Below, piece by piece: positions 54,850 to 64,000 of a stretch of DNA of 64,000 nt. The stretch covers positions 1,892,001-1,956,000 of the forward strand of contig NZ_CP069128.1 of assembly GCF_029637485.1 (NCBI RefSeq), given 5' to 3'. The notes under the pieces were generated by a model. The model worked only from the letters and a program-made list of their open reading frames with translations, did no database searches and had not been told where the DNA came from. The position numbers were made by a program, and so were the translations under genes. Within the stretch, counting starts at the first letter, position 1, and every line of letters starts with the position of its first letter. This DNA comes from Sphingomonas sp. LHG3406-1. Its GTDB lineage: Bacteria; Pseudomonadota; Alphaproteobacteria; Sphingomonadales; Sphingomonadaceae.

Positions 54850-55703
54850 GCGGTAAGAAGCTCCCGGAGTTCGGCATCATGGTCGCGCGGCGCTTCTTCA
54901 CCAAATAGATGCGCGAACGCCGCGGCGGCCTGAGCCACGAGCATCGTGAGGCCGCCCACCGCCACCAGCCCCCGCTCGCGCGCCTGCCGCAGGAGGTCCG
55001 TCTCGAGCGGGTCATAGACCATGTCGAAGACGACCGATCCCGGCGCCATCCCCCCGAGATCGACCTGCAGCGGCGGATGGCCACGCATGCCGAGCGGGGA
55101 GGCATTCACCAGCAGGGATAAGTGCTGCTCCTTCGATCTGGACTGGGCGAGATCGCCGACTTCGACCGACGCATATTCGGCATCGACGGGATCGAACCGA
55201 CGCCGGAAGGCCAGCGCACGCTCTTTGGTCCGCCCGACACTGGTCACGTGAAGCGGCGCAGGGCGGCGCAGGAGGGCGACCATCGCTGCTGCTGCTGCAC
55301 CGCCGGTGCCGATCACCGTCGCCGAGGAGATGCGATCGCCCTCGATCCATGGCCGCAGCGGGTCGGATACGCCGTTCAGGTCCGTATTGTGCCCACTGAG
55401 CCGCCCCTCAGCGCCGACACGCGTGATGGTATTGGCCGCACCGACCAACCCCACCTCGGCAGATTGTTCGTCAAGGTATCGCAATGCCTCGACCTTGAGC
55501 GGCATGGTGACATTGCAGCCGCACCAAAGCGGGTCGCTCCGCCGTTGTTCGAGATAGTGCGGCAGGTCTCCCGCCGTCACGCGGGTCGCGCGATAGTCGT
55601 AGGCGAGGCCCAGCTTGCCCAGCCAGAAGCGATGGATCAGCGGCGACCGGCTGTGGCCGACGGGATCGCCGATCACCTCCGCAAAAGGGACAGCTGATGT
55701 CAT
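54846..55703 (-). CDS. aroE: Shikimate dehydrogenase
   Basis: 285 aa. Reduces 3-dehydroshikimate with NADPH. Seen: GDPVGHSRSPLIHRFW, the catalytic Lys in NVTMPLKVEAL, Asp in GHNTDLNGV, GTGGAAAAAMVAL (dinucleotide fold), NASPLGMRGHPPL. ATG 55703 overlaps the maf stop by 4 bases. Confidence 0.96.
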   Translation of the reverse strand: MTSAVPFAEVIGDPVGHSRSPLIHRFWLGKLGLAYDYRATRVTAGDLPHYLEQRRSDPLWCGCNVTMPLKVEALRYLDEQSAEVGLVGAANTITRVGAEGRLSGHNTDLNGVSDPLRPWIEGDRISSATVIGTGGAAAAAMVALLRRPAPLHVTSVGRTKERALAFRRRFDPVDAEYASVEVGDLAQSRSKEQHLSLLVNASPLGMRGHPPLQVDLGGMAPGSVVFDMVYDPLETDLLRQARERGLVAVGGLTMLVAQAAAAFAHLFGEEAPRDHDAELRELLTA

Positions 55704-56284
55704 GCCGTCAACACGCCTTTCGCACGCAGCGCTCCGAGCAGAGGCAACAAGGGCATGCCGAGGATGGTGAAGTGATCGCCCTCAATTGCCTCGAACAGCT
55801 GGATGCCGGGTCCCTCCAGCCGGAAGACACCGACGCAATAGCTGACCTCGGGCCAGTCGCTTTCCAGATATTGCTCGATGAAGGCGTCGCTGAGCACGCG
55901 CACGCGAAGCCGCGCCTCGCCCGCGTGCCGCCAGATTATCTCGCTTCCTGTGGCGAGGACGACGGCGCTGGTCAGGACCATCGTCTTTCCCGAGAAGAAA
56001 CGCAGATGCTCGGCCGCCGTCTCGCGACCCGCGGGTTTGTCGAACCGGCGACCGTCCACGCTGATCAGGCTGTCGCTGCCGATCACCAGGGCTTGCTGTC
56101 GCCGCACCGCGACCGCCAGCGCTTTCGCTTCCGCCAGCGCAAGCGTCAGTCCGGCATCGTTGCCGTCGAATCCCGCCTTGATCGCAGCCTCGTCCACGCC
56201 AGGCGCCTCGGCCGCATAAGGTACGCCGGCATTGGCCAGCATCGTGCCGCGGATCGGCGAGGTCGAGGCGAGCACCAGTTCCAT
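55700..56284 (-). CDS. maf: Maf-like nucleoside triphosphate pyrophosphatase
   Basis: 194 aa. LVLASTSPIRGTML at the start, ALAEAKALAVA, VIGSDSLISVDGR, RFFSGKTMVLTSAVVL and GDHFTILGMPLLPLLGALR near the end define the Maf/YceF fold. Hydrolyses non-canonical or methylated nucleotides. First gene left of the predicted oriC; the kinase/pyrophosphorylase gene often found between the origin and maf is absent here. Confidence 0.94.
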   Translation of the reverse strand: MELVLASTSPIRGTMLANAGVPYAAEAPGVDEAAIKAGFDGNDAGLTLALAEAKALAVAVRRQQALVIGSDSLISVDGRRFDKPAGRETAAEHLRFFSGKTMVLTSAVVLATGSEIIWRHAGEARLRVRVLSDAFIEQYLESDWPEVSYCVGVFRLEGPGIQLFEAIEGDHFTILGMPLLPLLGALRAKGVLTA

Positions 56285-56578
56285 GTTCGTTCCTGTGGAG
56301 AAAGCCGCCTGTACCCCTAGCGCGGCTGCGGGGATGGACCAACCGGAGCCGATCAGGACCCGTCGGCAAGGATTCGCAAAGCCGCTTATCCACGGTGGAT
56401 GAAGCCATCCACAGGCCTGTGGAAAGCGGGAATTCGGCTGCGCGACTCGCCGGTCTTGCGAGAGCCGCCAATTCCGGCCACCTGTTGGCAACCATGGGAG
56501 GCCGACTTATTCCCCAGCTTCGGCCCGCCAACAGACTCCAACTACCTTTCTAAGAATCTATAAGAGAAAGAGATAAGG
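56285..56578. other. oriC: Probable chromosomal replication origin (oriC)
   Basis: A 294-bp spacer between the divergent maf and hemE. DnaA-box-like sequences: TTATCCACG (56386-56394, one mismatch to TTATCCACA), TGTGGAGAA (56294-56302, one mismatch on the other strand), CCATCCACA (56405-56413) and TGTGGAAAG (56418-56426), the last two forming an inverted pair. Four GANTC sites (56371, 56444, 56534, 56554). An AT-rich stretch (about 56545-56578) could unwind. The gene order on both sides equals, as I recall, the surroundings of the Caulobacter origin, and nearby genes point away from it on both sides. Confidence 0.8.
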
Positions 56579-57628
56579 GTGGCCGACCAGCCTTCGGATC
56601 AGACGACCGACAAGCCGCTCCTGGCCGTGCTCAGGGGCGAACGGCGCGACCCACCGCCCGTCTGGATGATGCGTCAGGCCGGGCGCTATCTTCCCGAATA
56701 TCGTGCGCTGAGGGCCGAAAAAGGCGGCTTCCTCGACATGGTCTATGATCCGCCCGCCGCGGCCGAGATCACGCTTCAGCCACTCCGCCGCTTTGCGCTC
56801 GATGCGGCCATCCTCTTTTCCGATATCCTGATCGTCCCGCATGCGCTGGGGCAGAACCTCAGCTTTGTCGCAGGTGAGGGTCCCCGTCTCGCGCCGCCGC
56901 TGAGCGGAGCCGAGCTGGCCGAGTTCGAGCCCGCACCCGAGCGGTTCGAGCTGATCTACGAGACCGTTCGCCAGGTGAAGGCACAGCTGTCGCCCGAGAC
57001 GACTTTCCTGGGCTTCGCGGGATCGCCCTGGACAGTCGCCACCTACATGGTGGCCGGTGAAGGCAGCCGCGAACAGGCCGAGGCCCGCCAACTCGCCTAT
57101 CGCGATCCGGGAAAGTTCGGCGCCATCATCGCGGCCATTGAGGAATCGACCATCGGCTATCTCGTCGGCCAGGCCGACGCGGGGGTTGATGCGGTGCAGT
57201 TGTTCGACAGCTGGTCGGGCAGCCTCGCCCCAACCGAATTCGAACGCTGGGTCATCGCGCCCACCGCGCGGATCGTCGCGAAGCTGCGCGCGCTCCGGCC
57301 GGACCTGACCATCATCGGCTTCCCCAAGGGGGCGGGCGGCAAGCTCCCCGCGTATGCCCGCGAGACGGGCGTGGACGCGCTCGGGCTCGACGAGACGGTC
57401 GACCCCCTATGGGCACATGCCAGCCTGCCCGACGGCATGCCGGTCCAGGGAAATCTCGATCCGCTGGCACTGATCGCCGGCGGCCCGGCGCTGGAGAAGG
57501 CGGTTCGCGTTATTCTTTCTGCCCTCGAGGAGCGACCGCACGTGTTCAATCTCGGCCATGGCATCCAACAGACGACGCCGATCGAGCACGTCCAGCAGCT
57601 CTTCCGCCTGCTTGGAAAGGCCGTCTGA
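56579..57628 (+). CDS. hemE: Uroporphyrinogen decarboxylase
   Basis: 349 aa. Converts uroporphyrinogen III to coproporphyrinogen III. PPVWMMRQAGRYLPEYR, the catalytic Asp in FSDILIVPHALG, GFAGSPWTVATYM, FDSWSG, FPKGAG and NLGHGIQQTTP are all present. Start is GTG 56579, since no ATG lies in frame before the conserved region. First gene right of the predicted origin; its stop overlaps the hemJ ATG by one base (TGATG). Confidence 0.97.
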   Translation: MADQPSDQTTDKPLLAVLRGERRDPPPVWMMRQAGRYLPEYRALRAEKGGFLDMVYDPPAAAEITLQPLRRFALDAAILFSDILIVPHALGQNLSFVAGEGPRLAPPLSGAELAEFEPAPERFELIYETVRQVKAQLSPETTFLGFAGSPWTVATYMVAGEGSREQAEARQLAYRDPGKFGAIIAAIEESTIGYLVGQADAGVDAVQLFDSWSGSLAPTEFERWVIAPTARIVAKLRALRPDLTIIGFPKGAGGKLPAYARETGVDALGLDETVDPLWAHASLPDGMPVQGNLDPLALIAGGPALEKAVRVILSALEERPHVFNLGHGIQQTTPIEHVQQLFRLLGKAV

Positions 57629-63558: not shown

Positions 63559-64000
63559 CACCTCACCGGTTGGATGTTTCACGTGAAACACGAGCTAAGC
63601 TGGAGCACTTCGTCTCCCTGCTCCTTCAAGAGAACGAATGTCAGAATCTGATCAGCCGAGCGAGCGCCGAGCAGGTGTGGGAGCGCCACATCCTCGATTC
63701 GGCACAGCTTCTCGACCATGCTCCTGCCAATGCTGACTGGCTGGACATCGGCAGCGGCCCAGGTCTTCCCGGAATGGTCCTCGCCATCCTTGGCGTTCGC
63801 TGCATCACCATGGCCGAGCCTCGCCGTCTTCGCACGGACTTTCTGGAGCGATCCATGCGCGAACTTGGCGTCGAGAACGCCCGCGTCGTCACCGGAAAGG
63901 TCGAGCAGGTCGATGGACGCTTCGACGTGATTACCGCACGAGCCGTTGCCTCTCTCGACCGCCTGTTTGCCTTGAGTGCCCGCCTTTGTGCGCCCGAGGG
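63555..64000 (+). CDS. rsmG: 16S rRNA (guanine527-N7)-methyltransferase RsmG, 3' end cut by window edge
   Basis: The first 148 codons are present. FVSLLLQENECQNLISRASAEQVWERHILDSAQL, the SAM motif DIGSGPGLPGMVLAIL and TARAVASLDRL match RsmG (GidB), which methylates G527 of 16S rRNA. GTG 63555 overlaps the mnmG stop by 4 bases. A parS palindrome is embedded at codons 7-12. parA and parB are expected just beyond the right edge. Confidence 0.95.
   Translation, partial: MTPHRLDVSRETRAKLEHFVSLLLQENECQNLISRASAEQVWERHILDSAQLLDHAPANADWLDIGSGPGLPGMVLAILGVRCITMAEPRRLRTDFLERSMRELGVENARVVTGKVEQVDGRFDVITARAVASLDRLFALSARLCAPE
63575..63590. other. parS: parS site inside rsmG
   Basis: TGTTTCACGTGAAACA is a perfect 16-bp palindrome that matches the ParB consensus exactly. 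It encodes part of D-V-S-R-E-T near the start of rsmG. With the site at 61822 it forms a parS pair about 7 kb from the predicted oriC. Confidence 0.9.

Follow-up and report, generated by a model that had tools for sequence, protein, structure and literature searches.

A predicted hemE-type chromosomal origin in Sphingomonas sp. LHG3406-1, with one boundary gene absent across its genus sample

The short gap between the genes maf and hemE in Sphingomonas sp. LHG3406-1 raises the question of whether replication of this chromosome starts there, as an earlier note on this DNA had proposed. We analyzed a stretch of 64,000 nucleotides (hereafter the window; bases 1,892,001–1,956,000 of the single-contig genome of 2,845,504 bp) together with other parts of the genome and the corresponding regions of relatives. 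A cluster of DnaA-box-like sites, a three-box core unique in the genome, a parS site, a distant flip in octamer polarity, and conservation all support the proposal, and as far as sequence can indicate, this 2.85-Mb sphingomonad chromosome very probably has its origin (oriC) in the 294 bp that separate maf from hemE. In the portions of the literature drawn on here, hemE-adjacent origins have been reported from Caulobacter, Rickettsia, and relatives (PMC1914354), and DoriC predicts an oriC in this position for most Sphingomonadaceae (PMC4741004). The origin considered here is an ordinary member of the hemE type, already described for sphingomonads, in which one neighboring gene has been lost, and its main notable feature is the absence of that boundary gene across the genus sample.

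DnaA-box-like sites between maf and hemE

The intergenic region occupies positions 56285–56578 of the window (genome 1,948,285–1,948,578) and is bounded on the left by maf (55700–56284, minus strand), encoding a Maf-like nucleotide pyrophosphatase that scores highest against a Maf-like model (185.5 bits) but stays under the cut-off of that model, and on the right by hemE (56579–57628, plus strand), encoding uroporphyrinogen decarboxylase with a GTG start and a TIGR01464 match over the cut-off. The genes dnaQ-coaE-aroE-maf lie on the minus-strand side and hemE-hemJ-rho-TerC-mnmE-mnmG on the plus-strand side (TerC being a TerC-family gene), and the open reading frame after mnmG was taken as rsmG by position only. 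The starts of maf at 56284 and of hemE at 56579 bear out the 294-bp extent, and the gene order and divergent orientation agree with the first description in both coordinates and genes. Like other hemE-type origins, the candidate thus lies in an intergenic region directly beside hemE, and its AT content is over the genome average, with a GC content of 59% compared to 62–73% in 2-kb steps of the window and 60–70% in 20-kb stretches sampled genome-wide.

DnaA-box-like sites were scored against the consensus TTATCCACA, counting sites with up to two mismatches. Five such sites were found inside 133 bp (56294–56426), none of them a perfect box. Two have one mismatch: TTCTCCACA (56294–56302, minus strand), located in a block, cTGTGGA.AA, that is kept in the genus alignment, and TTATCCACG (56386–56394, plus strand), with a conserved TCCAC core. 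The three weak sites, each with two mismatches, are TCATCCACC (56394–56402, minus strand), which overlaps the preceding site by one base, CCATCCACA (56405–56413, plus strand), and CTTTCCACA (56418–56426, minus strand), whose CTGTG core is kept in the genus. The seven genomic copies of TGTGGATAAS are all outside the candidate region.

The earlier note had pointed to DnaA-box-like sequences between the two genes; they are there, and it is their clustering, not their number across the window, that is exceptional. Boxes with at most one mismatch showed no enrichment over the whole window (3 found, 2.36 expected), whereas shuffling the 294 bp 400 times yielded a mean of 0.37 sites with up to two mismatches compared to the five real ones, and any separate place in the window held two sites at most. 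The candidate region was also the densest box cluster in the 1.157 Mb of genome examined, a scan that included 1.562–2.079 Mb continuously; the runner-up place had four sites. In 2.079–2.292 Mb, boxes were counted separately, in divergent intergenic regions only. The pattern of the three central boxes matched once in the whole 2.85-Mb genome, in the candidate region, and not at all in a reversed control. A box cluster beyond chance, as in hemE-type origins, is therefore present, built from boxes one or two mismatches off the consensus.

Conservation was assessed in two sets of regions. The genus set comprised 31 distinct maf–hemE regions of about 271–331 bp: the region under study, those of 29 relatives (with our own, the best 30 of 70 hemE-matching genomes, 71 searched), and locus L070, which was moved into this set given that its gap and alignment indicate membership of the genus, which we take to be Sphingomicrobium in GTDB. 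The second set contained 75 regions from other sphingomonads, each consisting of the 300 bp before hemE, from 80 named loci; also dropped from these were L051 and L052 (identical to genus rows), L101 (no neighbors recognized), and L058 (upstream sequence too short). Among the 31 genus regions, our own included, 29 carried one or more boxes with no more than one mismatch (mean 1.87 per region vs. 0.03 after shuffling), as did 71/75 other sphingomonad regions (mean 2.19 vs. 0.05). In several Erythrobacter and Novosphingobium loci (L061, L078, L085, L116, L122, and L130), a DnaA-box-like site was located ∼39–49 bp before hemE, a position that has no counterpart in the 294-bp region.

Chromosome-scale signals

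A perfect parS site, TGTTTCACGTGAAACA, was located at 63575–63590, 7 kb from the candidate region, and no other site in the genome came within two mismatches of it; a parS close by is another mark of hemE-type origins. Replichore polarity was approached with the octamer GGGCAGGG, the KOPS motif of E. coli, of which the genome carries 168 copies in forward and 182 in reverse orientation. Copies were sorted by hand in position order. Among the first 100 of 168 forward copies, 62 lay before 472 kb, 22 in 472–1948 kb, and 16 in 1948–2289 kb; we infer that the other 68 lie past the last of these, so that 146 fall in the arm outside 472–1948 kb. Of the 182 reverse copies, the first 100 comprised 7 before 472 kb and 93 at 475–1203 kb. 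The flip at 470–475 kb looks like the terminus, judging from sequence polarity, and its antipode is at about 1.895 Mb, with the candidate at 1.948 Mb. Given that no match to an E. coli-like dif core was found with up to three mismatches, this placement of the terminus relies on octamer polarity only.

On the origin side, the octamer was less orderly. In the continuous stretch 1.562–2.292 Mb, there were 8 forward and 12 reverse copies in 1.70–1.948 Mb, 5 forward and 12 reverse copies just right of the candidate (1.948–2.188 Mb), and 11 forward copies and 1 reverse copy from 2.188 Mb on. Polarity is therefore mixed over about 1.70–2.19 Mb, and the candidate falls roughly midway through this zone. 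The octamer thus cannot fix the position of the origin; on its own, it would suggest a flip closer to 2.19 Mb. Over the same ∼0.5 Mb around the origin, GC skew is mixed as well, and inversions may lie behind this pattern.

GC skew, which the earlier note had named as a check that could also favor a site near dnaA, did not single out either location: its minimum was at 1.714 Mb when sampled over the genome and at 1.781 Mb in the continuous 1.562–2.292 Mb, 167 kb from the candidate, and it gave no favor to dnaA either. We dropped it as an origin locator because it was too noisy to pinpoint a site. GC skew was likewise judged insufficient in several alphaproteobacteria in the part of the hemE-type origin study used here (PMC1914354). 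The maf–hemE locus provides this genome, whose origin GC skew alone fails to locate, with a well-supported candidate.

These irregularities bear on the alternative that the 294-bp region is merely a divergent maf/hemE promoter under DnaA and CcrM and that the origin is elsewhere, for example near 1.78 or 2.19 Mb. The skew minimum at 1.781 Mb, the prevalence of reverse octamers until 2.188 Mb within the mixed zone, and the conserved promoter-like elements for both maf and hemE described below would fit such an arrangement. However, no cluster of more than four boxes was found elsewhere in the 1.157 Mb, including the continuous 1.562–2.079 Mb, the three-box core is unique genome-wide, parS is only 7 kb away, and 75 other divergent intergenic regions of this genome had 0.87 boxes per kb (up to two mismatches) and a maximum of two per region, compared to five in 294 bp. 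This control omits the origin itself, probably since its ORF caller takes an upstream maf start. We therefore regard a promoter without an origin as very unlikely, even though this box-rich and GANTC-rich DNA could partly serve hemE and maf regulation. In many other bacteria, the origin is next to dnaA, and this general pattern is what speaks for an origin adjoining dnaA here. However, dnaA, at 1.1517 Mb and 797 kb from the candidate, sits where the sampled skew curve is still descending, away from its minimum, and its surroundings (1.136–1.156 Mb) had no cluster of four or more boxes, which makes this location extremely improbable.

The AT-rich run and promoter-like elements

An AT-rich run adjoining hemE had been noted from the first inspection, and we recovered it at 56530–56577 as a candidate DNA-unwinding element that overlaps the hemE leader and ribosome-binding region. 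Only this place and one other in the window contain 30 or more A/T in 45 bp, a density reached by 92 of the 1,307,008 45-bp segments that make up 1.31 Mb of the genome. Upstream of it, a putative hemE promoter (56485–56513, plus strand) consists of TTGGCA, a 17-bp spacer, and TATTCC. TTGGCA was found in 31/31 distinct genus regions, 70–121 bp before hemE, and was followed exactly 17 bases later by a TA-initial hexamer such as TATTCC or TAAACC in 30 regions and by CTAACC in the 31st; a looser form of TTGGCA plus hexamer was present in 31/75 other sphingomonad regions. The sequence CTGTTGGCAA, with one copy in the 1.157 Mb of genome and exact matches in 28/31 genus regions, could have been a replication motif in its own right, a reading that we set aside given that its fixed distance to the −10-like hexamer makes the hemE promoter a simpler reading. 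On the other side, blocks of CCTAGCGCG and CCAA (56316–56342, minus strand), conserved in the genus, form a putative maf promoter.

The predicted origin could operate as follows. DnaA would bind the moderate and weak boxes at 56386–56426 and the distal box at 56294, then multimerize, and the multimer would melt the AT-rich stretch at 56530–56577 adjoining hemE, where the helicase would be loaded and from which two forks would depart in opposite directions. Transcripts started at the conserved hemE promoter would run across this stretch and may aid its opening, while methylation of GANTC sites by CcrM probably marks newly copied origins, and ParB, acting at the parS site, would move the origin.

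Another reading concerns the place of melting: the region is the origin, but the AT-rich run amounts to no more than a purine-rich leader of hemE with its ribosome-binding region, and opening starts elsewhere in the 294 bp. The overlap with the hemE leader, the presence of AAGGAG-like motifs at the same place in relatives, and the distance of about 100 bp from the end of the closest DnaA-box-like site to the run are consistent with this reading, as is the result that no DnaA-trio-like run of at least three triplets (BUS-type criterion, with the consensus taken from the relevant part of PMC8287927) was found in the region; any such run was present in 3/31 genus regions. Against it, no other part of the region is as rich in A and T as 56530–56577, and the genus alignment retains an AT-rich stretch at this position. 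We consider a leader without an unwinding role unlikely and retain 56530–56577 as the candidate unwinding element.

A lost boundary gene, CtrA and GANTC sites

The earlier note had remarked that the usual kinase/pyrophosphorylase gene is missing next to the origin, and this absence extends to the whole genome. The COG1806/PF03618 gene (PPSR), the second boundary of hemE-type origins, was absent from our genome and from 36/36 other genus genomes sampled, while PF03618 was present in 23/24 genomes from other families of the order. Similarly, PPDK_N (PF01326) was absent from 36 of these 37 genus genomes and present in 21 of the 24 others. Given that PPSR regulates PPDK or PEP synthase, joint loss of a PPDK/PPSR module in the genus is likely, and it is the likely reason for the missing neighbor. 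Among the 80 named relatives, maf was upstream of hemE and in reach in 76; the maf–hemE gap was 286–309 bp in 3 of these and 1.06–1.42 kb in 73, and the larger gaps presumably hold PPSR.

Lack of the COG1806 boundary is not decisive, because the second boundary gene varies in other predicted hemE-type origins, as set out in the part of PMC1914354 considered here. In the predicted origins of Wolbachia, Ehrlichia, and Anaplasma (hemE-COG1253), the hemE boundary is likewise kept and the other boundary is not COG1806; a rearrangement is proposed for these organisms (PMC1914354, same part), whereas here the gene is missing from the whole genome and the order is otherwise unchanged. The locus also resembles the predicted oriC of Sphingopyxis granuli TFA, which in the available portion of its description is beside hemE with conserved DnaA boxes and a putative DNA-unwinding element (PMC4741004). 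In contrast to Sphingopyxis, of which three loci among the 80 named have a maf–hemE gap of 1127–1211 bp, maf is the direct left neighbor here. COG1806/PPSR, a common second boundary marker of alphaproteobacterial origins, can be missing across a genus sample with the origin-like region staying, which makes hemE the safer origin marker.

Caulobacter crescentus Cori is, in the partial accounts compared here, located between hemE and CC_0001/COG1806. Our candidate resembles it in adjoining hemE, in its weak to moderate DnaA boxes and AT-rich run, and in the CcrM/GANTC system of the genome, but it differs in that the COG1806/PF03618 gene is neither at the boundary nor anywhere in the genome, and in that Cori has five CtrA full sites, whereas the 294-bp region has neither a CtrA full site nor an IHF consensus match. 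The first reading had seen no CtrA full site, and the result holds at lower stringency: TTAA-N7-TTAA, the hallmark of a CtrA-controlled, Cori-type origin, was not found in the region with up to two mismatches. Exact sites were absent from all 31 genus and 75 other sphingomonad regions (0/106). With up to one mismatch, sites were present in 2/31 and 4/75 regions, close to what shuffling gave (means per region of 0.03 and 0.04), and with up to two mismatches there was a mild excess over shuffled sequence in both the genus (0.97 vs. 0.50 per region; 19/31 regions) and the others (0.84 vs. 0.62; 43/75), while the loose form TTWW-N7-TTWW was found in 6/31 genus regions (0.19 vs. 0.08 per region). 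Some relatives may thus carry very degenerate CtrA sites. In Sphingomonas melonis, growth does not require CtrA, although it influences replication there, according to the portion of PMC8116508 used here. The IHF consensus matched in 2/31 genus regions, which is chance level, and the Caulobacter G-box TGATCCACA had no match in the 294-bp region and exact matches in 3/31 genus regions.

GANTC sites, in turn, recur. The four sites in under 200 bases reported initially are present, starting at 56371 (GATTC, 56371–56375), 56444 (GACTC, 56444–56448, within the conserved block CGACTCGC), 56534 (GACTC, 56534–56538), and 56554 (GAATC, 56554–56558, within the AT-rich leader, where AAGAATCTA recurs in a number of relatives). 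They span 188 bp, and 0.42 would be predicted from the rate in the 1.157 Mb (P about 9e-4); the 75 divergent intergenic regions of the genome had 2.2 per kb. Given that four GANTC in 205 bp occurred at two further places in the window and that denser clusters exist elsewhere in the 1.157 Mb, GANTC alone is not diagnostic of an origin. Means per region were 5.55 in the genus (1.45 shuffled) and 4.33 in the 75 others (1.27 shuffled), and CGANTCG was present in 28/31 genus regions. Over the window (1–64000), GANTC was about threefold depleted (105 found, 302 expected); such depletion also occurs in other genomes with CcrM. Recurrent GANTC without CtrA full sites makes sphingomonads a testable case for methylation control of the origin. 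We tentatively propose, as a possible though rather doubtful scenario, that the genus has a compact promoter-origin of ∼270–330 bp that arose after PPSR and PPDK loss and takes its timing from CcrM, through methylation of conserved GANTC sites that include one inside the AT-rich opening region, and not from CtrA.

A CcrM homologue of 377 aa, with domains PF01555 and PF18755, is encoded at about 514.6–515.8 kb; its best NCBIfam match is CcrM, with 629.8 bits under a cut-off of 830. Just upstream of this gene, seven GANTC sites lie in 188 bp (L189:2656-2843; G000, the genome under study, about 515,810–515,997), more densely than anywhere else in the 1.157 Mb, which suggests methylation feedback on ccrM.
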